Shown here one piece after another: positions 1 through 16,552 of a DNA stretch of 64,000 nt; the stretch's first letter is position 1; each line of letters begins with the position of its first letter. Position numbers and translations under genes: made by a program. The notes under the pieces were generated by a model. That model ran no database searches and was not told where the DNA came from. It saw only the letters and a program-made list of their open reading frames with translations. The DNA comes from Eggerthellaceae bacterium (GTDB taxonomy: Bacteria > Actinomycetota > Coriobacteriia > Coriobacteriales > Eggerthellaceae): NCBI GenBank assembly GCA_017459925.1, contig JAFUCC010000008.1:1-64000 (forward strand). Reading direction: 5' to 3'.

Positions 1-3
1 GAT

Positions 4-1569
4 TCACCCCTTACGACCATTTGCAGAGAGCCGCGACCCGATGTACCAGTCGGCGGCGGACAGCCCGCCGTTCGCGTAGACGCAGAACAAGCCGGCATCA
101 GCGCCGAGGGTCAGGGCGCCGAGGCCCCGCCATTCTCTCGTTCCGCTCGTGGCCTTCTTGTTGGTGTAAGAGCCGTCGCACATGCCAGAGCTGTCGGACG
201 CTCCGTAACCGGAGCCGAACGGCAGATCACACGTGAAATCGGGGTAAAGCGGGTACTTCCACGAATCGGTCGTGTCGGAGTACAGGTACTTGCCAGTGCG
301 GGTGTAATTCGCAGTGACGGACGTCGCCTCGTTGCGGGAATCCCTGTTCAGGCAGATTTCCCAACCAGACGAACCGTCCGAAGACACGATCACGTCGCCG
401 AGCACTTCCGTGAAGCCGACGGCCAACTCGATGTTCTGAAGCTTGAACGGCTCCTTGCCGTTCGAGTTGGAATAAGGCGAGCCGTCGCCTTCGACCTGGT
501 CGGTCGCGCCCGTGAACCACGGGAGCGTGAACAGGTTGGTCGTGCCTGCCGTCGTCGAGAACGTCGCCGTCGTGTCGAGGTACACCGCGCTGTTGGAGCT
601 GTTGTACGCCTCGATCTTGAGGATTTTCGCCTTGGCATGGACGGAACGCGTAGCAGCAACGTTCTTGTCGGTGCCGGTGCCAAGTGACACGCACGAACCG
701 ACGACGAGATTCGCCGCATCGGTCGCGGAAATGATGATGCGCTTGACGTTGGACTCACTGACGGTGCAGGCGTAGGTGTAGTGATAGCTCGTGCAGCCTG
801 CCATGACCGACTGGCTGTGCTTGGTGGCGTACTTGAGCAGGAACATCGCCTTGACGTACCAGTCATCGGCGTAGGACTTGCCAGCGTAGCCAGTCGTCGC
901 GTTCTTGCACAACGTGATGAGCGCGTCATGCGAGACGGACGTCTCAGGGTAAGCCACCGACGGGACGCCGGACACGGATGCGTAGCTGCTGCCGTACATG
1001 CCGCCTGCGTACTTCGCATAGAGCATGTAGGGGCGCTGCGTGCCGTCTGGCAAGAGCGCACCGGGCTGAGGTTTCATGCCCTGCAGCCTGGTCTTGGAAA
1101 CGTACAGCAACTCATTCGATCCGCTAACGCTCGCGGCGTAGTAGAGGACCGGCGCCATGACCCAAACGTTGCCGTTCGAGCCGTCGAGACGGAAGTTGCC
1201 GTCGCCCTCGATGGCGGTAACATGGGGCGTGCCATCGGCATCGACATAGCCGTTGACGTTCCACGTCTTGAACGCGGGAATCGACGCATACGGGTCGGTA
1301 CCGGGCGACGCGATGGTTCCAGGCGTCGGCGCAGCGATCGAGGCGTTCGCGCCGAGCTTGGTGCATGCGGTTGAGCTTCCCATGGGGATGCTCACGCCAT
1401 AGGAATCCGAATCGGCGAAGCTGTCGATGAACGCCTTGACGGAACGGTTCGTGTACCGCTCGTTATCAGCGTCCCATTCGAGCTCCGCGTTCTCGACCAT
1501 CGTCTCGAGCGCGGTCGCTACACGCTGCAGCGTCTCGTCGGTAGCGGGGTGATACTTTAAAGTCGTCAT
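4..1569 (-). CDS. Tail receptor-binding protein with DGR-type variable C-terminus
   Basis: 521 aa, the last tail gene visible. The N-terminus (about 1-60) resembles a short oligomerisation or attachment region; the middle is beta-rich and Ser/Thr/Gly-rich. The final 45 residues carry a pattern typical of C-type-lectin-fold targets of diversity-generating retroelements: WRGLGALTLG, then AGLF, then ADWYIGSRL. In such proteins the AGLF...W.IG.R framework is fixed and the residues between vary. The 3' end therefore looks like a variable repeat; template repeat, RT and accessory gene would lie just downstream, left of position 1. A receptor-binding role is inferred from the fold and position, not shown. 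Confidence 0.75.
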   Translation of the reverse strand: MTTLKYHPATDETLQRVATALETMVENAELEWDADNERYTNRSVKAFIDSFADSDSYGVSIPMGSSTACTKLGANASIAAPTPGTIASPGTDPYASIPAFKTWNVNGYVDADGTPHVTAIEGDGNFRLDGSNGNVWVMAPVLYYAASVSGSNELLYVSKTRLQGMKPQPGALLPDGTQRPYMLYAKYAGGMYGSSYASVSGVPSVAYPETSVSHDALITLCKNATTGYAGKSYADDWYVKAMFLLKYATKHSQSVMAGCTSYHYTYACTVSESNVKRIIISATDAANLVVGSCVSLGTGTDKNVAATRSVHAKAKILKIEAYNSSNSAVYLDTTATFSTTAGTTNLFTLPWFTGATDQVEGDGSPYSNSNGKEPFKLQNIELAVGFTEVLGDVIVSSDGSSGWEICLNRDSRNEATSVTANYTRTGKYLYSDTTDSWKYPLYPDFTCDLPFGSGYGASDSSGMCDGSYTNKKATSGTREWRGLGALTLGADAGLFCVYANGGLSAADWYIGSRLSANGRKG

Positions 1570-1820: not shown

Positions 1821-2714
1821 CTATTCGCCCGACTGACCCAGCGCAGCACGCACTTCTGCGTCGGTGGCATAAGTCACGTCAGCAGCAAGCAGGTACGGGG
1901 ACAGGTCGACGAAGCCGGCGAGCACGTCGAACTTGTAGGAGCCCTCGTCGTCGACCACGACGATGTTCGTGCCCTCCGGGAAGGACTCACCAGCCGTGCC
2001 GTCGATGAACAGCGCAGCGGTCGTGGCGTCGATCGTCAGGGCGCCAGACAGGTTGTAGACCTTGCCCTCGTTGGCAGCGATCAGCAGAGCAGCAGCGACC
2101 GAGGCCGGGGCGATGGAGCCAGCAGGCTTGTAGGTCGTGGCGATGGCCGTCGCGATAGCGGATGCGACATGGTCGTAAACCTGATCGGACGTAGCAAGGC
2201 CAGTACCGCCGTCGGCGATGGAAGCAGCAACATCCTCAGTCGAGGCAGAACCCAAGCCATGAACAGCGACAGGCGAGCCGTTGACGCTGATGGCCTTGTC
2301 AACACTGCCCTCTGCGATGAGGACGTCGACGGCCTTGTTCTCGGGCGCCAAGGCGGTGCCGTTGACCTTCACAGACTCGATAACGTTCGGCTGAGCGCCA
2401 GCAGTGACGCCGTCCAACTTGTACTTGTCTGCGGAGGTCATGAGGCCAGAGTCGGCAGCACCAGTCTCGTCAGCCGTGACGTCGCTGTACGTGGTATCCG
2501 TGAACTCGGCATCTGCGGGGACGCTCTTGGCCAGCGAATACGTGGTAGCAACAGGCACGCCGTTGTCGAAATAAACCGGCTGCGTGGCGGAACCAGCGTC
2601 AGACGACAGCTTTGCGGCTGCGTCTGCGGTTGCGTGCTTGCCAAGATAGCTGTCATCACTGTCCTGCTTGATGATGGCTACCTGGGAGAGCTTGAGAAGT
2701 TTCTCTGTGGCCAT
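1821..2714 (-). CDS. Phage tail/head fibre-like structural protein
   Basis: 297 aa, rich in Ala, Asp, Thr and Val and with no catalytic motif. It starts with ATEKLLKLSQVAI, shared with the next gene, and ends with DAEVRAALGQ, similar to DDEVRAMLGK at the end of the 117-aa protein at 2790-3143. Such exchangeable end modules are common among baseplate and fibre proteins. Function is inferred from location between baseplate and receptor-binding genes. Confidence 0.6.
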   Translation of the reverse strand: MATEKLLKLSQVAIIKQDSDDSYLGKHATADAAAKLSSDAGSATQPVYFDNGVPVATTYSLAKSVPADAEFTDTTYSDVTADETGAADSGLMTSADKYKLDGVTAGAQPNVIESVKVNGTALAPENKAVDVLIAEGSVDKAISVNGSPVAVHGLGSASTEDVAASIADGGTGLATSDQVYDHVASAIATAIATTYKPAGSIAPASVAAALLIAANEGKVYNLSGALTIDATTAALFIDGTAGESFPEGTNIVVVDDEGSYKFDVLAGFVDLSPYLLAADVTYATDAEVRAALGQSGE

Positions 2715-2789
2715 ATTGATTCCTTTCTCTAAATGGTCACGTTTTCGTATGCACTCACGAGACAGGGCCCTTGCCTCGGTGATGCCCTT

Positions 2790-3143
2790 TTACTTGCCGA
2801 GCATTGCCCGGACTTCGTCGTCGGTGGCGACTTCGACGTCTTCGGACGAGTCGGGGCCAAGCTGTTCCCACTTATTCCCATCCCACATCGCCTCACCGCC
2901 GTTCGAGTCGACGTGATACGTCTCGCCAACCTTGCCCGATTCGGGCAAATCGTCCATGCTTTCGACCGATCCGCGGTAGGCCACGGCATCTGTTTCGACA
3001 CCGATGTCGTCGAGTGACTTGTCGCCAGATAGCTCGACGCCGTTGATTGACGGCTTGTTGTCCAGCAGCTCGTAGTCGGTGACGACCACCGTGGCGGTGG
3101 CCAGGTGCATGGTCCCGTCGCAGCACTTGCATTCGTCAGTCAT
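2790..3143 (-). CDS. Small phage structural protein
   Basis: 117 aa. It has a Cys-rich start (CKCCDG) and the INGVELSGDKSLDDIGV segment that recurs in phage baseplate and fibre proteins. It then has a MWDGNKWEQLG segment typical of small beta domains at fibre tips, and a C-terminal DDEVRAMLGK motif shared with the protein at 1821-2714. Its start overlaps the stop of the preceding gene by one base. Role: probably baseplate or fibre accessory. Confidence 0.6.
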   Translation of the reverse strand: MTDECKCCDGTMHLATATVVVTDYELLDNKPSINGVELSGDKSLDDIGVETDAVAYRGSVESMDDLPESGKVGETYHVDSNGGEAMWDGNKWEQLGPDSSEDVEVATDDEVRAMLGK

Positions 3144-3478
3144 CAGATTTCCCCTTCCTCTAGGAGACGTTCGATTTGCAGCACGCCGATTGATGAGGCG
3201 TCTGCCTTTTCACCGCGCTTGTAGCGCACTTGCACTTCGACCGCCTTACCCTCTTTCCAGGAAAGCGTGTCGGCCTGAGAGAGTGTTACGACGACGTTCG
3301 TGCCGCCGTCCTCCCTCTTGTAGAAACGGATGTCGTCGCCCTCCTTGACGAGCAGGTGCCTGTTTTCCAGGAAGGCGACGTGAACCTTCTCGAACACGGT
3401 CAGGTCAATGTCCACGCTGAACGCGAGGGTCGGGGTCGTGCCCCGCCTCACTGACAGCTCTGTTATGTAGCAAGACAT
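3143..3478 (-). CDS. Small tail-cluster protein, unknown function
   Basis: 111 aa, no recognised catalytic motif. Predicted beta-strand content is high (alternating Val/Phe/Ile) and the order of charged residues suggests a small soluble domain. It lies in the baseplate cluster, coupled to the genes on both sides, so a structural or assembly role is likely. I do not recognise the family. Confidence 0.6.
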   Translation of the reverse strand: MSCYITELSVRRGTTPTLAFSVDIDLTVFEKVHVAFLENRHLLVKEGDDIRFYKREDGGTNVVVTLSQADTLSWKEGKAVEVQVRYKRGEKADASSIGVLQIERLLEEGEI

Positions 3479-3487
3479 GACAGCCCC

Positions 3488-4369
3488 CTAGTAGTCGAAC
3501 GACACGTACGGCATTTCCACGCCGTCGACCGTCTCGTAGCCCATGCGGACCATCGCCGAGAGTACGCCATCGGTCACATCCAGCCCCTCTCCGAGCTTCG
3601 CGCCGCCCCTGGTGCTCTCGGACATGACAGGCACGGTGTAGTCGACGATCGCCTCGCACGCAGCCGCCGCCTCGTTTGCCCTCGAAGCGGCAGTTGAAGC
3701 CTGCTGGGCGTTAGAGCTTGCAGCATCTGCAGCGGAATTGGCCGTGCTCGCCGCATTGTCCGCGGCCTCTGCAGCGGAATTTGCTGAAGCAGCGGCGTTT
3801 TCTGCGCCCTCAGCGGCCTCCTTGGCGGCAAGGGCCTCCGCATTAGCCGACTCTGCTGCGCTGTTCGCGGTGGCCGTCGCCTGCTGGCATGAGTTGACGG
3901 CGGCAGCAGCCTCCTCAGCTGCCATGCCTGCGTTGAGCGCCAGCTCTTCGGCCGCTTCCTCGATTTGGTCGAGCAGCGGCACGTAATCTCCGGTCACGTC
4001 GTCGGTGAGCGAAACGTCGCCGAGAACTTCGATCGACAAGGCGTCGGTTGTCCCGATGTACTCGTCGCACTCGACGCGAAAGTAGGCGTTCTTGCATGTG
4101 CCGATGTACGCAGCCACCGCCGTCGGCAGCGCGTACGTGAACTGGCCCGATGCATCCTGCACGGTAACGGCGTCCATAATCTTCGCGCCGCCGGCGTTCT
4201 CGCACATGAACGACACCGACTTCGTCGACAGGTCGACCGGCTCGTCCGCATCGAGAATCTGGAAAGTCCTTCTCAGGGAGCGGTCGTCGCCACGCCTAAC
4301 CCGCAGGCGCTTGGTCGGCGAATAGGCGCTCTCGCTCTTCTGCAGGTTGAGCGTGATAATCTCTCGCAT
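3488..4369 (-). CDS. BppU-like baseplate upper protein / tail fibre
   Basis: 293 aa. Residues about 1-135 look like the BppU N-terminal domain of siphophage baseplates (RVRRGDDRSL...F.ILDADEPVDLS...). Residues 140-240 are an Ala/Glu/Asn-rich heptad region predicted to form a trimeric coiled coil. The C-terminus GYETVDGVEMPYVSFDY matches the end of the small protein at 1579-1803, suggesting an exchangeable tip module. Confidence 0.65.
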   Translation of the reverse strand: MREIITLNLQKSESAYSPTKRLRVRRGDDRSLRRTFQILDADEPVDLSTKSVSFMCENAGGAKIMDAVTVQDASGQFTYALPTAVAAYIGTCKNAYFRVECDEYIGTTDALSIEVLGDVSLTDDVTGDYVPLLDQIEEAAEELALNAGMAAEEAAAAVNSCQQATATANSAAESANAEALAAKEAAEGAENAAASANSAAEAADNAASTANSAADAASSNAQQASTAASRANEAAAACEAIVDYTVPVMSESTRGGAKLGEGLDVTDGVLSAMVRMGYETVDGVEMPYVSFDY

Positions 4370-4383
4370 GTTTCCGTCCTCCT

Positions 4384-4623
4384 TTAACCTATGGCGCCGA
4401 GGACAACGCCGCCACTCGGCATCATTGCGACCAATACGACATCGCCGGCTGTCGGCGAGTAGCTTGCGAGCTTCGGCAAAGGCGTCGCGTCCGATCCCTT
4501 GATAGAGACGTTGACCTTCTTTCCTGTGACTGAGCGAACCTTCCCGAACGCGATATAGCTACTACGTGGCTCTTCTGACCAGAACAGCTCCATGATTTCG
4601 TCTGAGACAATCGAGCTAGACAC
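4384..4623 (-). CDS. Small tail protein, GTG start
   Basis: 79 aa if it starts at the GTG at 4623-4621, which is preceded 9 bases upstream by a strong GGGGGAGG ribosome binding site and overlaps the stop of the upstream tail gene. Longer readings of this frame run through the upstream gene and are unlikely. The protein ends in MMPSGGVVLGAIG, an OB-like small beta domain style seen in baseplate/puncturing-device genes. Function unknown. Confidence 0.6.
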   Translation of the reverse strand: MSSSIVSDEIMELFWSEEPRSSYIAFGKVRSVTGKKVNVSIKGSDATPLPKLASYSPTAGDVVLVAMMPSGGVVLGAIG

Positions 4624-5728
4624 TCCAAGACACCTCCCCCGATACGGTGACCTCGAAATCAGGCGGGAGCAGGTTGCGTATCTTGACGACTGTCGCAGCG
4701 CCGAGGGCGCACGTGATGTCCATCGCCGTGCAGCCGCCGATGAAGTCAATTCCCGCCTCTTCCCACTCGACGCCGACGCAGTCATTCGGCTCAATGGGCA
4801 CGTACATGCAGGGGATTTCTAGCTTTTCAATGAGCGTCGAATTATCGATTAGCTGCTTCTTGGCCTCCTGCTTGAGGTTTGCGAGCTTTTCGCTTACGGA
4901 GTTACCAGCTATCTCATCGACCTCAACGCGCATCGATATCGTCCGTCCGAGCACAACCGTTGACGCCGAGCTGCGATCATCGGTATTAACTGCCTTTGCG
5001 GCTATTCCGCACGTTTCGTCCTCGTACCAAAGGTTCACGGCGTTGGGGATACCCGACTTGTTGTCTGAGTGCGTGACTGACACCTTCATCGCGCTCTCGC
5101 CGTCGTCCCTGAACCACCAGGACGGGCTCCGCTTCGTCGGCTCGACGTACGGGTGCATCTGGACGGTTCCCATGGCGTCCGGGTATACGCTCGAGTAGCC
5201 AGCTGCAGCCAGCAGCCAGTTGACCACGCCGAGCCACGTCTCGTCCGGATCGCAGATATGCGAACCTGCAAGCCGGTAAGACGACGGCGTCACGTTCACG
5301 CGTAGACCGAGAGATTTCGCTATATCGGCAGCGAGCGAAACCGGGTTCGCGCCAGCCGCCGCAACATACGGCTTTCCAGGGCCGTCATCGGCCAGGACGG
5401 CGAGGACACTGCGAAGCTCCGCACTGCCCTCGACGAACGAGCCCGTGTGGGTGTCGTCGCCCAAGTCGACGAAACACGTGCAAATCGGCCGCGTGACCGA
5501 CTCGCCCGATTCGTCCGAGAACGAGTAGTAGACGCGGATGAGGTTGCCGCCGTCTGGCACCGTGGCGCCCTTGTAGTCAATCGACCCGCTCGCCTTGAGG
5601 TCCGTGAAGGCTCCCAGGCTCACGTTGCCGCCCGTAATCTGCCAAAGCTCGTCACCTTCGGCCATTGAAGGCCAGGAGACGCGTCTGAACTCGAACTTCT
5701 CGTGTAGTCTCGTGCCACCCCACCTCAT
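4616..5728 (-). CDS. Tail-tip / baseplate hub-like protein
   Basis: 370 aa, starting in an ATGA overlap with the FnIII tail protein. The order of genes (tape measure, FnIII protein, this, baseplate/fibres) and the beta-rich sequence fit the tail-associated hub (Tal/gp27-like) of siphophages. Around residues 160-260 it has the WLGVVNWLLAAAGYSSVYPD and VEPTKRSPSWWF segments found in such hub domains. No lysozyme or peptidase motif is seen. Confidence 0.6.
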   Translation of the reverse strand: MRWGGTRLHEKFEFRRVSWPSMAEGDELWQITGGNVSLGAFTDLKASGSIDYKGATVPDGGNLIRVYYSFSDESGESVTRPICTCFVDLGDDTHTGSFVEGSAELRSVLAVLADDGPGKPYVAAAGANPVSLAADIAKSLGLRVNVTPSSYRLAGSHICDPDETWLGVVNWLLAAAGYSSVYPDAMGTVQMHPYVEPTKRSPSWWFRDDGESAMKVSVTHSDNKSGIPNAVNLWYEDETCGIAAKAVNTDDRSSASTVVLGRTISMRVEVDEIAGNSVSEKLANLKQEAKKQLIDNSTLIEKLEIPCMYVPIEPNDCVGVEWEEAGIDFIGGCTAMDITCALGAATVVKIRNLLPPDFEVTVSGEVSWSV

Positions 5729-8139
5729 AGAGCATCACCCGAAATTCTGGTGACTTGAAGCGATATCGTCCAAAGGTCGGCCTTCGGATGAACTCGCGAG
5801 ATGCTGGGCACCACGACAGCCCTGAAAACATGGCCGTACAGCGTCTTGTAGACAGCCGTCTTGTGGCTGCGTGCCAAGTCATAGAACTTCATCATTTCGT
5901 CCCAGCCGATTACCGTCGCGCTCACGTCGTGCGTCTCACTGGACTTGTCGCTCATTACGGCCACGGGGAACTCGTTCCCGGCGACAGGGACGAGCGTGTG
6001 CTCCGGCTCGACCTTGAACGGGTCGTCTGGCCCAAGCCAAGCACGGGCGATTTCGTCGTCCCAGTAGAAGAACATCCACTTCGACTTGACCTTGCCGGGG
6101 AACATGCCCTGAGACACGGCACCAGACGCCGCGATTGCCGCTGTCATGTACGAGTAGTCGATGTTGAGCGGCGCGTACTTGTCGACGTACACGTCGCCGT
6201 CGATGAGGTTGTTCGCCAACAGCGTAGTCTCGCCGTTCACGACCCTGTACAGGGCGCACGACTCGACTTCCTGCAGGCCGTCGTTAATCTTCCTGACAGT
6301 TATGGTCACATAGCCCGTGTCTGGGTTCGGCACGGCGTCGACCACGACCATCGAAGGCGGCTCGAACTCGACCATGAAGTCGCGACTCGTGCTCGCCTGC
6401 AGCGTCGACGTCGACCTGACGTTTACCGTTATCGTGTAGTTGTACCCGCTGGCTGGTAACCATTCGGACGCGCTGATGTCGAACTCGAGCGCGGACGTGA
6501 TATCGCGTGTGTAGACGATCACATCGTCGCTGTACACGTTCATGATGGCCTGGGCAAGCGTTCCCGACGGGTCGCTGTATGCGACCTCGACGTGAATCGG
6601 CATGTTCACGGCCGTGAAGTCGTTTGCAGGCTGCTCTACCGTCACGGTAGGCACCTGGTATACATAGAACATCCTCGACGCCGACCACGGGCCGTAATCG
6701 GCGTGAGAGCCCTTCGTGCGCACCTGAATTGACACCGCGTCGTTCACGCCGAAGTCGTTCGACAGCGAGTACGACGCCGTGTTGCCCGACACGTCCTGGG
6801 TCGTCCACGTCGAACCGCCGTCAGTCGACCACCTCACCTGAGCAGCCGTCTGAGCCGAGCCGTCGATCGGGTTATGAGTCCACCTGACGGCGATGCTCTG
6901 CTGAGACTTAGGCACGACCGCTGACGATGCCGGTGCGTTGATGGTCGGCGCGTTCGGGGCGCATATCGTCACGATACCGTCCGAGTAGACCCAAGCAGAG
7001 ACGAGCGAGCCGCGGGTGTTTCGAATTCGATAGTAGAACGTGCCCCCGCCTGGGTTGTCTGCGAACGTCGTCACCTTGCCCGAAACGCTCGTGAGAGCGG
7101 TCCAGTTGCTCCTATCGGTGCTGCGCTGAACGTCGAGCGCCGTCGCGGTGTTCGCGCCGTTCGAGAACGTGCCCTTGACAGCCGTGTCGGTGACGCGTGC
7201 CATCGACGGCTTTCCAGGAGCGGCAGGCGTGTTGTACACCGTGCCACTCGTGGCATAACCCGAATCGCCAGCCGGGTTGTAGCTCCTGACCCGGTATGCG
7301 TAGTAGTTGTTCGCCGACGTCGTCGTGTCGGTGTACGTGGTAGCCGACCCGCCCACCGTCGCTATCTGCGTCCAAGAGCCGCCGTTCACCTGGCGCTCGA
7401 TCTTGTGGCCGCTGTAGAACCCGGAATCAGACGAGCCGCGAGTCCACGCGATGGTGTTCGCCGTGTCTGAGTTTCGCGTCACGGAGCAGCTGCTCGGCGC
7501 GTTCGGCGAGTTGTACACCCAACCGCTCGTCGAGTAGCCAGACGTGCCGGCGGCGTTCGTCGCCTTCACCCTGTAGGCGTACCTGTGATTCGCAGACGTC
7601 GAGTTGTCGGTGTAGCTCGTCGCAGAGCCGCTGAGAGTCGCCACCACGGACCACGAGCCGCCGTCTACGGCCCTTTCGACCGTCAGGCTGGAATAGGGCC
7701 GCGCAGTGCTCGCGTTGCGCGTCCAGGTCACGACGTTCTGCGTGTTCGACCTCCGCGACACCGATATACCGGTCGGTGCATTTGGACTCCAAGTCGGAAC
7801 ATCCGGCGTGTAAGTGGCGGTGCAGTTGGAAATCTGGTAGCCGCTGCTGTTCGACGTGTAGCTTGCGCTGCACGACGAGGTGTGCGTTGCACCGTAGTTC
7901 ACCCAGCCGACGTCTTGCCAGCCAGAATCGCCGTACCATCCTGCGCCATAGAGCTCAACGGTGCCGCCCCACGACTTTGCGATGTGGGAACCCCAGAAAT
8001 TGCCGTCGTCGACTCGGATCGAGAACTTGCGCTGAACCCAAGCCCTCGTCTCCTCCTGCTTGGTCGTGCGGTACTCGATGTAGGCCCTATAGTGAGACAG
8101 GCTTGTGCCTGCAGTGTTTCCGTAATAGCCGCGAGCCAT
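5725..8139 (-). CDS. Tail protein with fibronectin type III repeats
   Basis: 804 aa. Three FnIII-like domains (about residues 115-210, 211-303 and 304-395) have the repeated pattern W.R....Y..L..ER.V.GG.W..VAT..G.ATSYTD and Y.YRV. The C-terminal half (about 400-804) continues with beta-sandwich sequence and an end region resembling distal-tail/baseplate proteins. FnIII domains in tails are thought to bind surface carbohydrates. It follows the tape measure gene by two bases, the usual place for a distal tail or tail-tip protein. Confidence 0.75.
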   Translation of the reverse strand: MARGYYGNTAGTSLSHYRAYIEYRTTKQEETRAWVQRKFSIRVDDGNFWGSHIAKSWGGTVELYGAGWYGDSGWQDVGWVNYGATHTSSCSASYTSNSSGYQISNCTATYTPDVPTWSPNAPTGISVSRRSNTQNVVTWTRNASTARPYSSLTVERAVDGGSWSVVATLSGSATSYTDNSTSANHRYAYRVKATNAAGTSGYSTSGWVYNSPNAPSSCSVTRNSDTANTIAWTRGSSDSGFYSGHKIERQVNGGSWTQIATVGGSATTYTDTTTSANNYYAYRVRSYNPAGDSGYATSGTVYNTPAAPGKPSMARVTDTAVKGTFSNGANTATALDVQRSTDRSNWTALTSVSGKVTTFADNPGGGTFYYRIRNTRGSLVSAWVYSDGIVTICAPNAPTINAPASSAVVPKSQQSIAVRWTHNPIDGSAQTAAQVRWSTDGGSTWTTQDVSGNTASYSLSNDFGVNDAVSIQVRTKGSHADYGPWSASRMFYVYQVPTVTVEQPANDFTAVNMPIHVEVAYSDPSGTLAQAIMNVYSDDVIVYTRDITSALEFDISASEWLPASGYNYTITVNVRSTSTLQASTSRDFMVEFEPPSMVVVDAVPNPDTGYVTITVRKINDGLQEVESCALYRVVNGETTLLANNLIDGDVYVDKYAPLNIDYSYMTAAIAASGAVSQGMFPGKVKSKWMFFYWDDEIARAWLGPDDPFKVEPEHTLVPVAGNEFPVAVMSDKSSETHDVSATVIGWDEMMKFYDLARSHKTAVYKTLYGHVFRAVVVPSISRVHPKADLWTISLQVTRISGDAL

Positions 8140-8141
8140 TC

Positions 8142-10865
8142 CTACCGCCTAACCTTCGTCGGATTGCTTCGCTTGGCCCTCTTGAACACGTCGACGATGT
8201 CCTCGATGGTCGCAAGGTCTTCGAGGCTGGAAACGTCGACGGTCACGTCGCCGATGTAGTAGACGTTGCCGCCACCCTGCGAGTAGCCGCCTGCTCCCGC
8301 CATGGCGAAGTCGGCCCTGCCAGTGCCGTAGTCCCACGACTCGATGGACGAGGTCACGTTTCCGAGTGCGCTTCTGAGGTTGCGCATCTGAGATTGGATG
8401 CCGTTAATCAAGCCGCCCATGATGAACTCGCCGCTCTCGACGAGCAGGTTGCGGTCGACGTCTTCGGGGCCCTTCCAGTCGGGAATGAGGCTCGTCACGC
8501 TCGAGAGCATGTCCTGCAAGCCGCCGAGTGCGCCGCTGATGCCGCTGATGAGGCCGTCGATGATTTGACGTCCAGCGTCGATTAGCCAGCTGCCGGCGCC
8601 TGAGAAGATGCTCATTATCTTGTCGGGAATCGAGCTGATGAAGCTCATCATCCCGTCGACGCCGCTGCTCACGGTGCTCTTGACGTTCTCCCACGTCGAG
8701 CTTACGAACGACGACACCGAACTCCAAACGCTGCTCCACACGCCGCTGATCGCGGACAGCACCGAGCTGATTACGCTCGAAATCGCACTCATTGCCATGT
8801 TCACGAGGCTTTGGATTCCGTTCCAGACGGAATCCGCAATGCCCTTCACAGCGTTCCAGAAAGCGTTCCAATCACCGCGGATGATTGCCGAAACCGCCGC
8901 GATGATGCCCTGGATGACCCCCATGACCGTGTCGATGATGACCTGAATCGCAGGCCAGACGGCCTGCACCACGGCGAGGATTGCGTACATGACCGTCGTC
9001 ACGATTGCCTGGATTGCGGGCATGACGTCGTTAATCGCTGCGAGGATGTCCTCTAACACCGGCATGACCGCCTCGATGATAGCGGCTGCGAGTTCGACGA
9101 CGACGGTTATGATTTCGGTGATTATCGGCAGCAGAACCGACACGATAATCGTAATGAGCGGCGCGATTGCCGCCACGATATTGAGGATGAGCGTGATAAT
9201 CTGGCCTATCACGGGCAGGATGGCGTTGATAGCGGCTGAAATCGCCGGCATGACGGCCGTCGCGAGCCGCTGGATGCTCTCTCCGAGCACGATCAGGATG
9301 GGCATGAGCGACGAGCCGATCTGCTGCGCCAAGCCGATGACCGTGTTGCGGAAATCCTCGTTCGTCGCCATGAGGTACACGAACCCTGCCGCAAGCGCGG
9401 CGACGACGGCCACGGCTATTCCAACAGGACCGGCAAGGCTCAGCAGGTACTTGCCAACCCCCATAAGCCCACCGTTGACGGCTGAGAAGCGCGAAACGAG
9501 GATGAGGGCTTCTGCGCCAAGGCCCTTGACGAACGGAATCACTTTACCCAGCGCACCTGCGGCGGCGGTTATAGGGCCTCTGAGGTTGACGAACGCAGCG
9601 GCGAACAGGCCTGCCACCGCGATGCCGGAGCCGCAGTTGTCGATGAAGTCGCCGATGGCGTTCTCAAGCGGCGCAACCTGCTCAAACGTGAACCCGAAAG
9701 CCTGGGCAACCTGGCCAAACACGACCGCGATGTGGTCGCCCACTGAGGCCATACCGTCGGTTTCCTCGCGAAGCTCCCTCAGCACTGCAGGAATCGAGCT
9801 AATCCGCTCAGCGAAGTGGCCGAGGGCATCGGCAGCAGGTCCGATGTACTGCTCAACAGGAGTACCTTCAAAGAGCTTCAACATAGCAGCATGAAGAGCT
9901 GTTACTCGGTCACCCGAAATTTCCAAAGCCCTGTTGTATACAGACATAGCAGACTCGATGCGACCACCTATGGCATCGGTGAAAGCAAAGAAGGCATCTG
10001 CTGCAGGCTTGATGAGGTTACCGAAATTCGTTCCCCATTTAGAGAAATGCTTACTAATGCCGTCGAGCAGGTTCGCTATGCGCTTCGGGTCTATGGCATT
10101 GATCACGTTCTCCCAGAACTTGCCAATGCGATTGCCGAAGTTCTCCATCGAGGTTTTGATGCCCTTCGTTGCGGCCTGAGCCTGAGCATGGAAGGCTTCA
10201 CCGTTCGCAATGAGCGCATCGTTAAACTGCTCCATTGACACAGAGCCGTCATCAAGCGCCTCTTTCAAGTCCTGATACGAATGCCCAGCGCCCAAGATCG
10301 ACTCGGCGAGCTGATTCATCTGCGCCGGCGCGGTCTGGATTAGGGTGAACCAATCAACGTACCCGAACTTCCCTTTGGCAAGGGCCTTCGTATAGGCTTC
10401 TTGCGCCCTTGTTGTGGCTTCGGTTCCCTTTCCGCCTGCAAGCATTGCGTCATTAAAAGCGAGGCCCATGTCCGTAGCCTGTTTAAGACCCGGACCTGTC
10501 GCTTTGATTTGTCCGACAAATGAAGCGATGTCGGACGTCCTTGACGGCAAGCCGTCTAACCCGTTTGATATTGCTTTTACAGCGTTGTTTGCGTCCTCAG
10601 TGGACTCGCCGAGAGCAACCATCGTGTTATTGAACTGATTGAGGGTATCGACGCGGTTAATACCTGCATCGATGCCACCAACGAACTCACTCCACCCTGC
10701 AGATACCACGTTGGATATGATGTTGCCAAAAGCAACACCAAACGACGTGATGCCGCTTTGCATCGTGTTAAGTGCATTCATGGTGTACGAGCTGACGCCG
10801 CTAATCTTCTTTGACGCCTGATCGTCGACACTGATTTTCACCATGAGGTCGAGAAGGTTCATCAC
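8142..10865 (-). CDS. Tail tape measure protein
   Basis: 907 aa, the longest phage gene, directly after the tail assembly chaperones and starting in an ATGA overlap with them. The N-terminal third is helical and matches tape-measure sequence style (NTMVALGESTEDANNAVKAI, then ADMG-like helices). The centre has long hydrophobic stretches (about residues 410-640, VIxxII-type). By the usual 1.5 angstrom per residue the tail would be about 135 nm long. Confidence 0.93.
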   Translation of the reverse strand: MMNLLDLMVKISVDDQASKKISGVSSYTMNALNTMQSGITSFGVAFGNIISNVVSAGWSEFVGGIDAGINRVDTLNQFNNTMVALGESTEDANNAVKAISNGLDGLPSRTSDIASFVGQIKATGPGLKQATDMGLAFNDAMLAGGKGTEATTRAQEAYTKALAKGKFGYVDWFTLIQTAPAQMNQLAESILGAGHSYQDLKEALDDGSVSMEQFNDALIANGEAFHAQAQAATKGIKTSMENFGNRIGKFWENVINAIDPKRIANLLDGISKHFSKWGTNFGNLIKPAADAFFAFTDAIGGRIESAMSVYNRALEISGDRVTALHAAMLKLFEGTPVEQYIGPAADALGHFAERISSIPAVLRELREETDGMASVGDHIAVVFGQVAQAFGFTFEQVAPLENAIGDFIDNCGSGIAVAGLFAAAFVNLRGPITAAAGALGKVIPFVKGLGAEALILVSRFSAVNGGLMGVGKYLLSLAGPVGIAVAVVAALAAGFVYLMATNEDFRNTVIGLAQQIGSSLMPILIVLGESIQRLATAVMPAISAAINAILPVIGQIITLILNIVAAIAPLITIIVSVLLPIITEIITVVVELAAAIIEAVMPVLEDILAAINDVMPAIQAIVTTVMYAILAVVQAVWPAIQVIIDTVMGVIQGIIAAVSAIIRGDWNAFWNAVKGIADSVWNGIQSLVNMAMSAISSVISSVLSAISGVWSSVWSSVSSFVSSTWENVKSTVSSGVDGMMSFISSIPDKIMSIFSGAGSWLIDAGRQIIDGLISGISGALGGLQDMLSSVTSLIPDWKGPEDVDRNLLVESGEFIMGGLINGIQSQMRNLRSALGNVTSSIESWDYGTGRADFAMAGAGGYSQGGGNVYYIGDVTVDVSSLEDLATIEDIVDVFKRAKRSNPTKVRR

Positions 10866-11460
10866 GTCACCTCCAATCCAGCTCGCTTGATTACGTCATC
10901 GATCACCGCTTCTGCGTCGATGTCCTCCTGTGGCGTGACGGAATCGACCCAGCGTTGACCACCGCCCAGCAAGCCTGCTAGGCAGTCGGTCACGTACGTT
11001 CGGTAGGAAAGCTCTTCTGATTTGCTCTTGGACTTCTCTGTCGCGTAAGCTATGAACGGTCGCGGCATCTGGGGCCCTCGGTACTCACCGAGGGCAATCC
11101 AGACTATTCCGCTGTCTCTTGCTGCGAGGATAAAAAACTGGTGAATTCCTCGTCAGAAAGCAGCTCGACCACATCTGCGATCAGGCTCGACAAGCTCATT
11201 TCGGCGACGAACTCGTCAGGCGACACGCCCTTAACGGTCGCCAAGATGGCAACGATGTCGTCCTTGTGCGTCTTCAGCAGAGCTGGGATGGCTTTGCGCA
11301 TCCGATTGACGAAAGCCTGGTTGTCGCTCTCGCCGTCCGCGGGCTTGATTCCCTTGAACATCGCCGCAGCTTCTTCATCCATGGCGATGTTGGCAATCGG
11401 GTCGACGAGGTCAGCGATGACCTCGAGCGTACGCTCGCCTTTAATATCGGATAGACGCAT
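10862..11460 (-). CDS. Tail assembly chaperone, long -1 frameshift product
   Basis: Predicted 199-aa fusion. Ribosomes read residues 1-110 from 11460, slip -1 at T_TTT_TTA (11137-11131) and continue 89 codons to the stop at 10862. The -1 frame from the slip site is open: 21 codons (ILAARDSGIVWIALGEYRGPQ minus the last residue is enough to see the run) join the 68-codon ORF beginning MPRPFIAYA. This is the gpG/gpGT arrangement of siphophages, always just before the tape measure gene. Confidence 0.85.
11104..11460 (-). CDS. Tail assembly chaperone, short product
   Basis: 118 aa, helical and acidic, zero-frame product of the tail chaperone gene. It lies between the major tail protein and the tape measure gene. 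The last codons after the slip site (SSQQETAE) are made only in the unshifted product. In characterised phages the short form is in excess and the pair keeps the tape measure soluble and spirals tail tube subunits around it. Confidence 0.85.
   Translation of the reverse strand: MRLSDIKGERTLEVIADLVDPIANIAMDEEAAAMFKGIKPADGESDNQAFVNRMRKAIPALLKTHKDDIVAILATVKGVSPDEFVAEMSLSSLIADVVELLSDEEFTSFLSSQQETAE
11131..11137 (-). other. Programmed -1 ribosomal frameshift site T_TTT_TTA
   Basis: On the minus strand the sequence reads AGT TTT TTA with codons 108-110 of the tail chaperone in zero frame, so the heptamer T_TTT_TTA is in the exact register needed for tandem -1 slippage. The frame entered has no stop before 10862 and encodes the second half of the chaperone. 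Confidence 0.88.
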
Positions 11461-11463
11461 TGT

Positions 11464-12336
11464 TTAGCCCTCCTCGACCTGCTCGCTGCGCGTGACCGTG
11501 ACCGTGTACGTCTTGCTCAAACCGCTATTGGTGACGGTGACCGTGACGACGTTCTCACCGACGTTCCAGGCTGCGTCGTGGCCGTTCTCGACAGCCGTCG
11601 TGCCGTTCACGATTGCGACGGTCGCCCCGCCGACGTTCGCGGTGGCCGTGATGGCGTCGCTCTCGTTGGCGGTCGTGGCCGTGTACTCGGTGACGGTTGC
11701 CAGGAACTCGGGAGTCAGCTCAAGCTCGCCGATCGACAGGGCGGACAGCGTGACGTCCGTCGTGCCCTCGGTGCCTTCCTTGATGTAAATCTCGAACGGC
11801 ACGGTGTCGATGTCGTTGATGCTGTAGTGAGCCGTGAACTCGAACGCGAAGTCACCCTTGCCCTTGTCGTTAGACTGAATCTTGAACCCGCCGGTGGACA
11901 GGGTGTTCTTCATGTGGATGGCCATGAACCCGGCATCGTCGCCGGTCGTGACATCCGAGTAGTCGCCAACCCACCAGATGTCGTCGAAATCGTCCTGCTT
12001 GAGCACGGAACGCGGCATAACCTTGTTGCCGTTGATGTCTGCAGCTGCGATGACGCGCTTGGCGAACGGACGGTCCGCCGTCTTGGCGGTGCCGCTGATC
12101 TTCACGTCGTAGTAGTCGAGCTGCTTGAGCTCCATGGTGTTCGCAGGCACGTTGTCGATGTCATCGCCGAAGTCGATGTACGTCGGCGTAGCCTCGAACG
12201 AGACGCCGCCGCCAGTGGCAGCGAGGATGTCGTCTTCTTTGAGCGCACCAGTCTCCGGATTGAAATCGGAGAGCAGCATGCCGGCGTTGAGCTGAAGCTT
12301 CTGGAACGCATCGGACGCTATCTGCGTGTATTTCAT
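11464..12336 (-). CDS. Major tail protein (tube) with C-terminal Ig-like domain
   Basis: 290 aa. Residues 1-200 resemble major tail tube proteins (SFEATPTYIDFGDDIDNVPANTMELKQLDYYDVKISG style). Residues 205-285 form an added beta-sandwich with the repeated pattern ATANVGGATVAIVNGT...VTVTVTNSGLSKTYTVTVTR, as in cadherin-like/Ig-like decorations on phage tails. Its position before the chaperones supports the call. The Ig-like domain would project from the tube. Confidence 0.85.
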   Translation of the reverse strand: MKYTQIASDAFQKLQLNAGMLLSDFNPETGALKEDDILAATGGGVSFEATPTYIDFGDDIDNVPANTMELKQLDYYDVKISGTAKTADRPFAKRVIAAADINGNKVMPRSVLKQDDFDDIWWVGDYSDVTTGDDAGFMAIHMKNTLSTGGFKIQSNDKGKGDFAFEFTAHYSINDIDTVPFEIYIKEGTEGTTDVTLSALSIGELELTPEFLATVTEYTATTANESDAITATANVGGATVAIVNGTTAVENGHDAAWNVGENVVTVTVTNSGLSKTYTVTVTRSEQVEEG

Positions 12337-12348
12337 ATGCCTTCCTCC

Positions 12349-12723
12349 TTACGAGGCGGTCAGGTACTCGACGTTGACGTTGACGTACCTGCGCTTGATT
12401 GTGTTGTCATCGGATTCCTCGCGGACGGCCTGCGCCCACGGGGAGCCCTTCTTTAGCCAGAGCGTGCCGCCGTCGCACTTGACAAGCGTCCCGCCGTTGC
12501 CGAGCACCTTGCCGATCTCGCGGACCTTGGCGTTCGGCTTCTTCTCTGAGTTGGTGCGGAACCACAAGTTGACTGGCATGTTCACTTCCGGCTGCATCCA
12601 CTCGCCCTCGACGAGGTCGTAGGTCAGGTACGGGAATTCGGCATCCGAAGGCACCTCCGTGGCGGCGTACGCCTCCATGCCGAACTGCTCGAAGAACTCC
12701 TGTATTGCAGCTTCAGGCGTCAT
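12349..12723 (-). CDS. Tail terminator / completion-like protein
   Basis: 124 aa, overlapping the upstream gene by 11 bases and preceding the tail tube gene. It has the FPYLTYDLVEGEW stretch and the C-terminal RRYVNVNVEYL strand seen in minor tail/terminator proteins of gpE-capsid phages. Function is by position and sequence style only. Confidence 0.6.
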   Translation of the reverse strand: MTPEAAIQEFFEQFGMEAYAATEVPSDAEFPYLTYDLVEGEWMQPEVNMPVNLWFRTNSEKKPNAKVREIGKVLGNGGTLVKCDGGTLWLKKGSPWAQAVREESDDNTIKRRYVNVNVEYLTAS

Positions 12724-13072
12724 CTTGCGGTAACTCCCATTCCTCAGCAGCGACCCTGGCGAACTGGAACGTCGACATCGTCGGCGTGTGCCTATCCGCG
12801 GTGTCAGATGTCGTCCTGAACGTCTTGCCGTCCGAAAGCCGCTTGAAAACGCTGTGAAACGGCAAGGATGTTTCCGGATTGACCGTCACCGTGTAGACGT
12901 CGGTCATCCCGTCCTTCTCGGCGACCCTGGCGTTCAGGGTGTTCTCGCGGTGGATTGCAGCTTTGAATGGCGCCCCGTCAATCCATCTGACGTTGTGGCC
13001 ACCCTCGCCGTCCTTCTCGACCAGCTTGTAAAGCCTCACACACGGGACCGTCATGTCCAGGAACAAGGTCAT
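12713..13072 (-). CDS. Head-tail joining protein
   Basis: 119 aa from the ATG at 13072, which sits in an ATGA overlap with the preceding connector gene; readings from further upstream only shadow that gene. Small beta-rich protein (TVPCVRLYKLVEKDGEGGHN...DVYTVTVNPE) in the connector block between capsid and tail tube. Probably a stopper/head-closure protein. No catalytic motif. Confidence 0.6.
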   Translation of the reverse strand: MTLFLDMTVPCVRLYKLVEKDGEGGHNVRWIDGAPFKAAIHRENTLNARVAEKDGMTDVYTVTVNPETSLPFHSVFKRLSDGKTFRTTSDTADRHTPTMSTFQFARVAAEEWELPQDDA

Positions 13073-13515
13073 GCGACCTTCCTCCATACGTTCAGGCGGT
13101 TGCGGAAGTGAGACTGCCATGTCTCCACGGCTTCCCCTGACTCGCTTCCGCCGCTCGCCTTCGTGTAGCTGTAGCCGTCGAACGACTCCGACTGGTACGG
13201 GCCGTCGAGCACCTGGGCGTTGTTCTCGCACCAAGCCTCGATCTCGTCCGCTATCTCGATGACCGCCTGCGGAACGGCGAGGAACTGGACGGTGCCCTTG
13301 AATTCCTCGTCTTGCATGGCAGGCAGCGGATAGCAGTCCTTGCCAGTCGTCGGCCAGCGGTGCAATCCGTCGTTGAACACCGAGCCGTTAATCCAGAAGT
13401 ACTGACCATGCTGCAGGCCGATTATCTCGAGGGCGCCGTCAGCAATCGTGAACTTGCCGCACTTGCTGTTGCGCACGAATCGGTTGTGCAGATGGTTCAG
13501 TACTTCTTCCAACAT
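13069..13515 (-). CDS. Head-tail connector-like protein
   Basis: 148 aa, immediately after the major capsid gene (3-base gap). The N-terminus MLEEVLNHLHNRFV and the central FTIADGALEIIGLQHGQYFWINGSVFNDG-type segment are common in connector proteins of gut siphophages. A long helix (AVIEIADEIEAWCENN) follows, as in adaptor proteins. Likely part of the neck. Confidence 0.6.
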   Translation of the reverse strand: MLEEVLNHLHNRFVRNSKCGKFTIADGALEIIGLQHGQYFWINGSVFNDGLHRWPTTGKDCYPLPAMQDEEFKGTVQFLAVPQAVIEIADEIEAWCENNAQVLDGPYQSESFDGYSYTKASGGSESGEAVETWQSHFRNRLNVWRKVA

Positions 13516-13518
13516 GGC

Positions 13519-14601
13519 TTAGGCCGCTTTCGCCGTTTCCGCGATGCTCGCGATGAACAACGACTGCGGCGCGAACAGCACGGGCATGTACAGAGCCGAC
13601 GCCTTAGTCCACAGCACGGCGGGGTCGGTTTCGGCCCACTGGCTGACGTAGACGTAAGGCGACTCGGACGAACCGCCAACCTGCATGAACTGGGCGATTT
13701 CGACCTCCGGCGGGGTGCCCCACAGGCCAGCGCCGAGGCGCATGCCGTTCTGGGTGCCGAAGAACGTCACCTTGTCGTTCGGGAAGTAGCGGTGAGCCTT
13801 GACCGTCGGGCGCTTCGTGGAAGACGCCTGCAGCGGCTCGGCGTACGTGAGGTCGTCGGTGATGACCTGGCTGATGCCGTACTCCTCGCTCAGGAAGTCG
13901 AGCAGGGCCTGGTTGCGCACCAGGATGCCGGCCTGCGAGGAGCCGTTGATGGCGAGCTGCAGGTTGGCGTTCTTGCGCAGCTTGGTCAGCAGCGACTTGG
14001 GGCAGACCATGCCGGTGATGGTGACGCCCTCTGCGGCGGCCGCGTCGACGATGTTCTGAAGCTGGGTCAGGACGTCGGTGGCGGCGCCATCGCCCACGTC
14101 GAGCGTGAGGTTCTTGTGGTTCGTCGGCACGCCGTAGTCGATAACCTCGTTCAGGCCGTTCTCCTTGATGGTGACCTGGCCGGTCGCAAGCAGCTCGGCA
14201 CGGGCGACCTTGGCGCGGGTGATGACCTGATCGGACAGCGCAGCGTTGTCGTCCATGACGAAGTCGTACAGCGTCTCCTCGACGCGCACGCCACGCTTCA
14301 GGAGCTGGCGAAGCAGCTCGGACGTGTTGCGCTTGACCTTGATGAGGCCCTTCTCGATGTTGTGCTCGTCGATCGGGGCGCGGTCGGACTTCTGCGCCTG
14401 GGTGTCGAACGCGTGGAACTGGGCCATCTGGGGAATCTGATACTCAGATGCCATCGTGTACCACTCGGCTACCAGGTTGTCGGTGACTTGGTCGGTGAAC
14501 AGGCCCTCGAGCGGGTCGTTCGGACGCGAAACCATGAAACCGGTTGCAAGCAGGTCAGCCTCGCTGACCATGCCCATTGTCTCGTTGATGAACTTAGGCA
14601 T
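13519..14601 (-). CDS. Major capsid protein, gpE-like
   Basis: 360 aa, the length and style of lambda gpE-type capsid proteins: IKVKRNTSELLRQLLKRGVRVEETLYDFVMDD, then VLTQLQNIVDAAAAEG, KRPTVKAHRYFPNDKVTFFG near residue 265-285, and an APQSLFIASI tail. It follows scaffold and decoration genes with short gaps and has a good ribosome binding site. HK97 fold expected from the family. Confidence 0.9.
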   Translation of the reverse strand: MPKFINETMGMVSEADLLATGFMVSRPNDPLEGLFTDQVTDNLVAEWYTMASEYQIPQMAQFHAFDTQAQKSDRAPIDEHNIEKGLIKVKRNTSELLRQLLKRGVRVEETLYDFVMDDNAALSDQVITRAKVARAELLATGQVTIKENGLNEVIDYGVPTNHKNLTLDVGDGAATDVLTQLQNIVDAAAAEGVTITGMVCPKSLLTKLRKNANLQLAINGSSQAGILVRNQALLDFLSEEYGISQVITDDLTYAEPLQASSTKRPTVKAHRYFPNDKVTFFGTQNGMRLGAGLWGTPPEVEIAQFMQVGGSSESPYVYVSQWAETDPAVLWTKASALYMPVLFAPQSLFIASIAETAKAA

Positions 14602-14612
14602 TTTTCACCCTC

Positions 14613-14981
14613 CTATTCCTCGCCGCCGAAATTGGGGCGGGTAATCTCCGGGGACTCAATGACCGTGATGCCGGTCAGGGCCTTCGCGGCATCTTCTGCC
14701 AGCTCGGCAGGAAGCAGGTCGCCGTAGACGATGCCCTTCGTGACGACGGAACCAGGCTTGGAGCCATTGGTCACGTCGATGTCCTCGTACAGGATGCCCT
14801 TGGCGGATGCGCCGTTGGCGGGGATGACCGCGCCAGCGGGAACGATGGTCTTGCCGTTGATGGTCAGCTTCTGAGCGTGGTTAGCCGCGATGCTCATGCT
14901 CTCGCGCACGCAGTTCTCGTCATCTGCGAGGAAGTGACCGGCGTTGAACGTGATTCCGTTCGATGCTCCTGTGAAGCTCAT
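14613..14981 (-). CDS. Head decoration-like protein
   Basis: 122 aa, between scaffold and major capsid genes, the usual location of gpD-like decoration proteins in gpE-capsid phages. The sequence is beta-rich with a repeated small-residue pattern (IVPAGAVIPANGASAKGILYEDIDV). Function by position and size. Confidence 0.65.
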   Translation of the reverse strand: MSFTGASNGITFNAGHFLADDENCVRESMSIAANHAQKLTINGKTIVPAGAVIPANGASAKGILYEDIDVTNGSKPGSVVTKGIVYGDLLPAELAEDAAKALTGITVIESPEITRPNFGGEE

Positions 14982-14990
14982 GCGCTTCTC

Positions 14991-15572
14991 CTATTCCTCA
15001 TTGGTGGACTTGCCGTATAGGCGCTCATGCCGTTCTTGAAGGCGCTTGGCCGTCTCCGGGTTCACCCCGTCGACGGTGTGGCTCGAGGCAGGCGGCGTAT
15101 CGACTTCCGCGCCCTTGGTGGATGTCTGCGGAATGAACGCCTCCCACTCGGTCTTGGCCTTCTCTGCGAGGGTTTCCCTGTCAGCAAGCTCGCCGTCGAC
15201 GACGGTTACGCCGCTGAGGTCGGTCACCTTCATGATGGAGTCGAGCCGCTTCGCATCGATGCCTTGCTCGCTGAGCAGGGCGCGGTACAGGTCGGCCTTC
15301 TCCTTCTCGGCCTGCTGCTGGGCAATCTGGACCTTGTACTGCTCGAAGGCTTCGTGCTCTTCGTTGTACTTGGCCTCGAAATCCTCAGTAGGCTTCGCGG
15401 CTTCCAGCTCCTCGACTTTCTTCTCGAGTGCAGGAACCTTGGACGCTCGCTCGTTCAGGTCGTCGCGCTGTTGCTTTAGCGCGTCAACGGTTTCGGTGTG
15501 GGATTCGATAATCTGGTCGATCTTCTCTTCCTCGATGCCCATCGCCTTGAGCATGCTCCTGGTAAGCGCCAT
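14991..15572 (-). CDS. Capsid scaffold protein (GP20-like)
   Basis: 193 aa. A predicted coiled coil covers residues about 15-110 (IIESHTETVDALKQQRDDL..., then EKKVEELEAAK and EQYKVQIAQQQAEKEKADLYRAL), followed by a charged C-terminus, typical of GP20-type scaffolds. First gene of the capsid-tail transcription unit; the TGTGAC-type promoter at 15625-15644 lies 53 bases upstream. Confidence 0.85.
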   Translation of the reverse strand: MALTRSMLKAMGIEEEKIDQIIESHTETVDALKQQRDDLNERASKVPALEKKVEELEAAKPTEDFEAKYNEEHEAFEQYKVQIAQQQAEKEKADLYRALLSEQGIDAKRLDSIMKVTDLSGVTVVDGELADRETLAEKAKTEWEAFIPQTSTKGAEVDTPPASSHTVDGVNPETAKRLQERHERLYGKSTNEE

Positions 15573-15624
15573 GTAAGCTCCTATTCTTCGGGGGCTGTTC
15601 CTCGCCCTTTGCTTGACAGTGCGC

Positions 15625-15644
15625 AGTATGAGAGACGTGTCACA
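15625..15644 (-). promoter_or_regulatory. Candidate phage promoter a (capsid-tail operon)
   Basis: Minus strand: TTTGTGAC, 8 bases, CATACT. The TGA stop of the VRR-NUC gene lies inside the TGTGAC element. It is the last copy of the motif in the late region, so it would drive scaffold through fibre genes. Confidence 0.55.
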
Positions 15645-15972
15645 AATTCAGGTATCTGTCGATTAGCGCGATGGCGTTCTCGGCTCCTACGCAGATGTAT
15701 GCGCACATGCCCTCTTCCCTAAGACGCCATATCCACTCGACCTGCTTCGCGGTAGGCTTGCCGCCATCGGCTTTCATTTCGATGTAGAGCGAGTGGTACG
15801 GCCCACGGGCCACGGGGATGCATAGGTCGGGCACTCCTGCCCTCAAGCCCTGCCTGACGAGGCTGGCGCCCTCTGCGACGCTCCTCAAGCCCTCGTTGGG
15901 GATGTGGAACACGGGTAGGTTGCGCAGCTCGCAATACTGGACAACCGCAATCTGTTCGTCTGCTTCGCTCAT
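15640..15972 (-). CDS. VRR-NUC domain nuclease
   Basis: 110 aa, a stand-alone VRR-NUC (PD-(D/E)XK) domain with GVPDLCIP, then YIEMKADGGKPTAKQ, carrying the conserved D and E-x-K, and Q..W...L...G near the end. Such proteins occur in many phages next to packaging or replication genes and process branched DNA. The ATG lies 6 bases after a -10-like TAGTAT, so the mRNA may be leaderless; no ribosome binding site is seen. Confidence 0.88.
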   Translation of the reverse strand: MSEADEQIAVVQYCELRNLPVFHIPNEGLRSVAEGASLVRQGLRAGVPDLCIPVARGPYHSLYIEMKADGGKPTAKQVEWIWRLREEGMCAYICVGAENAIALIDRYLNL

Positions 15973-15978
15973 GGCTCG

Positions 15979-15998
15979 ATACTACGGACGCGGTCACA
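15979..15998 (-). promoter_or_regulatory. Candidate phage promoter b (VRR-NUC gene)
   Basis: TTTTTGTGAC, 8 bases, TAGTAT on the minus strand. The T-run is also the U-tract of the terminator at 15998-16026. The ATG of the nuclease gene follows the -10-like box by 6 bases, which would put the start of transcription at the start codon. Confidence 0.6.
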
Positions 15999-16026
15999 AA
16001 AAGAGCCGCCCGACACAAGGCGGCTC
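15998..16026 (-). terminator. Intrinsic terminator fused to promoter b
   Basis: GAGCCGCC / GGCGGCTC perfect 8-bp stem with an 8-base loop, then TTTTT that runs into GTGAC. It ends the short unit started by promoter c. Confidence 0.8.
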
Positions 16027-16086
16027 GATCAAAGGGGCCGTTCTCCGATTTGGGAAGGTGGGGGTGAAACCCAAGCCGAAGTCGAC
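15999..16086 (-). ncRNA. Predicted short RNA between promoter c and terminator
   Basis: Promoter c and the terminator at 15998-16026 bracket about 90 bases with no convincing ORF on the minus strand. Inferred only from those flanking signals; it could also be a relic of a deleted gene or a read-through leader of the VRR-NUC mRNA. Confidence 0.35.
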
Positions 16087-16092
16087 GGCGGA

Positions 16093-16112
16093 ATCGTATT
16101 CTCCCGGTCACA
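16093..16112 (-). promoter_or_regulatory. Candidate phage promoter c
   Basis: TTTTTTGTGAC, 8 bases, TACGAT on the minus strand, directly continuing from the U-tract of the terminator at 16112-16146. Confidence 0.5.
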
Positions 16113-16146
16113 AAAAAGGGCGCCTCCCGCCGAAACAGGAGGCTGA
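16112..16146 (-). terminator. Intrinsic terminator fused to promoter c
   Basis: Minus strand GCCTCC, loop, GGAGGC stem, then GCCC and TTTTTT; it ends the unit started by promoter d. Confidence 0.65.
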
Positions 16147-16177: not shown

Positions 16178-16183
16178 GACGCC

Positions 16184-16545: not shown

Positions 16546-16552
16546 GCATGAA

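Follow-up and report, generated by a model that had tools for sequence, protein, structure and literature searches.

The window, i.e. the whole stretch of 64,000 nucleotides that was analyzed (bases 1-64000 of contig C124 of bin G000), starts at a contig end, and there is therefore no sequence to the left of its base 1. The last gene visible at this end is located on the minus strand and, as the initial annotation had observed, points off the window; it terminates at base 4. This gene, its variable repeat (VR), and the template repeat (TR) and reverse transcriptase (RT) found on another contig of the same genome (C127) are listed below with the other features of the locus.

Window 1-23, minus strand: first part of the VR-TR interval, which the contig end interrupts and which resumes at C127:1-83
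Window 4-1569, minus strand: DGR target gene encoding a 521-aa tail protein (phrog_17147 and phrog_5302 matches)
Window 24-132, minus strand: VR, codons 480-515 of the 521-codon tail-protein gene, with its template at C127:84-192
Window 1821-21007, minus strand: upstream phage structural genes, putatively tail to packaging (ORF order)
Window 45663-46820, plus strand: phage integrase (PF00589, 5e-17), at the far end of the prophage
Window 46894-46950, minus strand: attachment-site copy within the 3′ part of tRNA-Thr, a 57-bp exact match to C127:4052-4108
Window 46906-46981: tRNA-Thr
C127, about 17-34: GC-rich hairpin 3′ of the VR, 7-bp stem and 4-nt loop (fold)
C127:84-192: TR, 109 bp
C127:218-314: RT-19-like RNA in the TR-RT spacer (Rfam match)
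C127:341-1438: RT, directly after the TR, open frame (RVT_1 2e-11, phrog_1423 7e-37)
L073 14-1582 and L074 4989-6557: two related viral contigs, near-identical over 5.4 kb except in the VR

The repeats and the target gene

A plain DNA BLAST search of the whole bin with bases 1-400 of the window gave a sole other match, C127:84-192. The two copies align over 109 bp without gaps (83% identity, 18 mismatches). All 18 mismatches fall at adenines of the C127 copy, which contains 26 of them (hypergeometric P 9e-15), and all 83 non-adenine positions are identical in the window. Since C127 has A at each of the mismatched positions and the other 83 agree, the C127 copy is the template and the window contains the variable copy. 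The final two changes of the VR (CAA to CTC) were found again in several relatives, and they are therefore probably a fixed TR/VR difference marking the 3′ boundary, like IMH/IMH* of phage BPP-1; when they are left out, 16 of 16 mismatches are at adenines (P 3e-13).

The VR is situated at the 3′-end of the open target gene, where AAC codons of the template were converted to GCC, ACC, CTC, TAC, GGC, GCC, GAC and TAC, and an AAT codon to GAT. The changes include codons 498 (AAC to TAC), 505 (AAC to GCC), 507 (AAC to GAC) and 509 (AAC to TAC); AAC or AAT codons 485, 487, 488, 491 and 501 were also altered, and AAC codon 500 was unchanged. The initial annotation had placed a VR-like stretch at bases 4-140 and had proposed that its TAC, GCC, GAC and TAC codons were reached from AAC. 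Comparison with the C127 template placed the actual VR within these limits, and all four codons proved to be changed AAC codons of the template. Our searches turned up neither a chance duplication nor a second TR in the rest of the bin, and no further VR, whether in the remaining genes of the window, on C127 or beyond it in the bin; a search for templates in which C or G was mutated instead of A likewise revealed no case.

The target gene matched phrog_17147 (3e-97) and phrog_5302, annotated as 'tail protein' (5e-24), and is flanked by other phage structural genes on one side and by the lysis genes on the other. These matches, the position of the gene and the example of known phage DGRs suggest that its product may act in host or receptor binding. 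Searches of Pfam, NCBIfam and PDB sequences gave nothing beyond chance, and there was no profile match of the target to Mtd. When 21 relatives were aligned over the C-terminal part, the framework AGLF...W.IG.R was found to be largely conserved. The framework that the initial annotation had pointed out is real, but its attribution to C-type-lectin targets is putative. AlphaFold models of the full-length protein (8 sequences, mean pLDDT 35) and of the C-terminal 172 aa (22 sequences, mean pLDDT 54) were too poor for a fold call, and a PDB search with these low-confidence models gave no significant match; we therefore claim no fold for the target.

A prophage on two contigs

The continuity of the prophage from C124 to C127 was established by its attachment site and by synteny. 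The 57-bp direct repeat lies beside the integrase gene in the window; on C127 it separates the RT, XkdX-like and holin genes from the host-like genes that come next, and the orientation of the two copies is that expected for attachment sites flanking one prophage. In relatives, the target, TR, RT, a small ORF and a holin-like gene occur in that order on one contig, and the lysis genes of C127 come after the tail genes of C124 as they do in those phages. The VR-to-TR spacing is ~209-319 bp in the relatives and 215 bp here if the contig ends abut. Both ends align to neighboring positions of one interval in relatives, e.g. in L060, which has GTGAAT and, a few bases further on, CGAAGCGGAA and the GC hairpin; the ends may be separated by a gap of as many as about 15 bases. 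C124 and C127 thus each carry one half of a single prophage of ~51 kb, integrated in tRNA-Thr, whose host is assigned to the Coriobacteriales on the basis of related genomes.

The initial annotation had predicted, beyond the left edge of the window, a near copy of the VR differing only at adenines and an RT gene at a distance of 0.1-3 kb. Both exist: the copy is the TR at C127:84-192, on the contig that continues the prophage past the assembly break, and the RT (C127:341-1438) is found in the order and spacing of the single-contig relatives. The IMG/VR contigs of three related phages (L062, L075 and L077) end, like the window, within the VR or a short distance beyond it, which suggests that the TR/VR repeat generally tends to interrupt assembly there.

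Among the genes upstream of the target (1821-21007), the only one matched to a phage family was 1821-2714 (phrog_38190, function unknown), and the assignment of this segment to tail and packaging functions is a prediction from sequence and gene order. Two short motifs were also recorded. GGGTGAA, located just after the VR and before the hairpin, is kept in the window and in L006-L009, L022-L024, L060 and L061, the intervals being otherwise divergent. A short repeat, TTGAACATCACCCC(T/A)GGGGT, recurs near host genes on both contigs (window 47075-47154 and 60782-60810; C127 6548-6570 and 9812-9832).

The reverse transcriptase and its RNA

A search of the bin with RVT_1 revealed five RT places, one of which (C127:551-1141) lies inside the ORF at 341-1438. 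The best solved match of the RT profile was 8ub7, labelled reverse transcriptase, which we take to be the BPP-1 DGR enzyme.

In a survey of 155 DGRs, motif 4 of the RT had the form (I/V/L)GxxxSQ in 90% of cases (the exceptions being SP, SH, NQ, PA, AQ and VQ), and the residue before xDD was Y or F; the SQ motif was considered a hallmark, not a strict definition, and it was suggested that adenine-specific error depends on it (PMC3521204). Other authors have interpreted non-SQ forms as inactivated enzymes or as sequencing errors (PMC4244168). The RT described here departs at both places: its motif 4 is IGTYFSL, which lacks the (I/V/L)GxxxSQ hallmark, and its catalytic motif is HLDD, with H in the position of the Y or F of YxDD and both aspartates kept. 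Since DiGReF accepts non-SQ elements as DGRs if their TR and VR show the adenine pattern (PMC3521204), the element was kept among the DGRs and filed as a variant.

Relatives were found with alignments as queries; the single RT sequence as query found none, and a search of viral contigs for the exact TR pattern gave no match. In an RT tree of 24 rows, the 14 rows with FSL, LSL or FSM formed one clade (support 100/100), and the neighboring groups carry SQ. Within this clade, the RT of the window phage (HLDD) and those of L061 and G289 (both HMDD) constitute an HxDD subclade (support 99/97). The tree carries a long-branch warning, above all for BPP-1, and the long branches are outside the FSL/LSL/FSM clade. 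One member of the clade, L085 (RT at 475-1560), combines FSM in motif 4 with QMDD at the YxDD position; no TR or VR was found in this fragment.

The GC-rich hairpin downstream of the VR fits the stem and loop length of phage DGR hairpins, which have a GC-rich stem of 7-10 bp and a 4-nt loop GRNA and are required for homing in BPP-1 (PMC3240598), but its loop is GCAA and not the published GRNA. The spacer between the TR and the RT matched the RT-19 RNA of Rfam (RF03073) at C127:218-314 with 30.9 bits (E 3e-4, 500 bases searched), over the full length of the model (1-99 of 99) and on the correct strand. Full-length matches were located at the same place in L054, L064 and L073, and also in L059, which is outside the SL clade. 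The spacer matches (31-41 bits) do not reach the RT-19 gathering score of 78.3, and these spacers are distant kin of RT-19 RNA, not members by the rule of Rfam; the BPP-1 spacer matched Phage_DGR. An alignment of 14 spacers yielded 12 pairs in 3 helices, with standard pairing in 95% of cells; there were 17 double changes, whereas shuffles gave 4.7 and sliding gave no more than 7, the helices being derived from the same alignment that was used to count covariation. Folding of the spacer of this cassette as a single sequence was no better than shuffles (z -0.08), and the structural claim therefore rests on covariation across relatives. A search of the bin and of nine relatives for genes of the bAvd family (PF22296) had no hit, the BPP-1 control being positive.

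The DGR of Bordetella phage BPP-1 (mtd, avd, TR, brt) resembles this cassette in its 3′-end VR, hairpin, TR, spacer RNA and RT, with the same order and strand, and in its adenine-only TR/VR differences. The two RTs, however, are only 25% identical (SQ and YMDD in BPP-1, FSL and HLDD here), Mtd is not detectably related to the target of the window phage, and the spacers match different RNA families (Phage_DGR and RT-19, respectively). BPP-1 also has avd between the target and the TR, where none was found here; an accessory protein of the Avd type, present in BPP-1, is not universal among DGRs. The Eggerthella lenta DGRs (ert, mtd) likewise belong to prophages of the class Coriobacteriia, but are reported to have a predicted avd or a TR within the RT gene; one of them was seen to vary in culture (PMC8778435). 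The RT of the crAssE-Sib phage DGR is similarly devoid of the SQ motif, but it has SP instead of SL, retains YxDD and represents one phage, in contrast to the clade described here; the SP form was called unexpected, and a widely used DGR finder detected it only after in silico alteration of the motif (PMC11054128).

The bin contains other retroelements. A second DGR (L028; G000:C139:11000-28000) has its TR at 7648-7758 and its VR at 6978-7088, with 12 of 12 mismatches at adenines and a nearby RT with a divergent motif 4 (GSQMVQ) and YMDD. In a third (L029; G000:C13:5000-20000; TR 8190-8315 on the minus strand, VR 8922-9047), 10 of 10 mismatches are at adenines; its RT match is partial and the frame appears interrupted. 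Two more RTs (G000:C202:1468-2109 and C37:592-1128) do not resemble DGR enzymes in their context, as far as this was viewed. In two Olsenella assemblies (L032 and L033, about 3700-4000) the target runs into the 3′-end of the TR and there is no second copy, as if VR and TR had been fused by deletion or by assembly collapse; the RT of L033 also has an in-frame stop.

Adenine-specific change and its interpretation

The same cassette was found on one contig in many relatives. In 14 SL-type TR/VR pairs taken together, 174 of 177 mismatches were at A, a figure that is descriptive because the repeat finder by which the pairs were picked selects for adenine bias; the same script recovered the TR and VR of BPP-1 as a control. 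The proportion of adenines changed was 56% in these 14 pairs and 61% in six SQ-type pairs (also obtained with the adenine-favoring finder), and the bases replacing A did not differ significantly between the two types (P 0.44). Unbiased tests were provided by the window pair, obtained by plain BLAST, and by L073 and L074. The latter stem from separate IMG/VR entries (RT with FSL and YADD) and differ at 17 positions over a shared 5,447 bp: 2 lie at a contig end and the other 15 in the VR, where 12 coincide with TR adenines (P 1e-7). The TR is identical. This is what recent DGR action looks like, and it was observed with an RT lacking the SQ glutamine. For the HxDD subclade (window phage, L061 and G289) the evidence consists of TR/VR patterns, no strain pair having been found for the window phage or for this subclade; the HLDD enzyme of the window phage is presumed to be active now.

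We put at roughly 97% the probability that the left end of the window is the VR of a DGR in a tailed-phage prophage integrated in tRNA-Thr, with the cassette split only by assembly. This reading is based on the 18 of 18 adenine mismatches, the RT following the TR, the 57-bp repeat, the single-contig relatives, the hairpin, the spacer covariation and the L073/L074 pair; the unread join of C124 and C127, FSL for SQ, HLDD for YxDD, the failure to find an Avd-family gene and the GCAA loop speak against it. Chance resemblance, or ordinary decayed duplication of the gene end, is refuted by the TR/VR test in the window, the pattern in relatives and the L073/L074 pair: no point was found in favor of this explanation, whose probability is negligible given P of about 1e-14 for the 18 mismatches, the repetition of the pattern in many independent phages and the failure of template bases C or G to yield any. 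The contigs might also derive from different phages of the bin, with the TR of C127 serving another target, as could be imagined for a bin of 224 contigs with 8% contamination and a join not present on a single contig. We consider this most improbable in view of the attachment repeats in matching orientation, the identity of TR and VR at 83 of 83 non-adenine sites, the failure to find a further VR on C127 or in the rest of the bin, and the lysis genes that follow the tail genes as in relatives.

The most serious competitor is that the DGR was formerly active and that its RT has since been inactivated (HLDD, FSL), leaving the VR as a frozen relic. This would agree with the survey, in which only Y or F precedes xDD (PMC3521204), with the interpretation of non-SQ forms as inactivated (PMC4244168) and with the absence of a strain pair for the window phage and its subclade. 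HxDD, however, is common to three divergent phages, all with adenine-only or nearly adenine-only TR/VR differences, and was therefore inherited and is not a fresh lesion. Moreover, the RT frame is open, the VR of the window shows no drift at the 83 non-adenine sites, and the wider FSL clade is active, as seen in L073/L074. A relic is thus unlikely. If the DGR operates as we propose, the phage RT would copy the TR RNA, with its structured spacer, and make errors at adenines, and the cDNA, homing presumably by the BPP-1 mechanism, would replace the VR at the 3′-end of the tail gene between the fixed GC-rich boundary and the downstream hairpin, so that about a dozen codons of the presumed host-binding tip would vary and the TR would stay intact.

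DGRs in Coriobacteriia prophages and DGR RTs without SQ (SP, crAssE-Sib) were known; the cassette itself is one more phage DGR, and its use lies in the RT lineage. The literature searched did not mention the SL form, HxDD or an RT-19-like RNA as a DGR spacer, although large surveys may contain such sequences without remarking on them. It is likely, in our judgment, that a monophyletic group of phage DGRs (so far from Coriobacteriia genomes and viral contigs) lost the SQ glutamine (FSL, LSL, FSM), that a subgroup including the window phage changed Y to H in YxDD, and that adenine-specific mutagenesis was kept, apparently without a bAvd-family protein. Motif-based searches may miss such non-SQ DGRs. 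Because assemblies can break at TR/VR repeats, a contig that ends in half a DGR deserves to be followed up. If the proposed history is true, the RT-19-like RNA would be the DGR RNA spacer of this group, and the SQ dipeptide would not be what makes DGR RTs adenine-specific. A clade uniformly without Q, with the adenine pattern kept and a natural pair showing fresh VR change, makes the SQ hypothesis directly testable.
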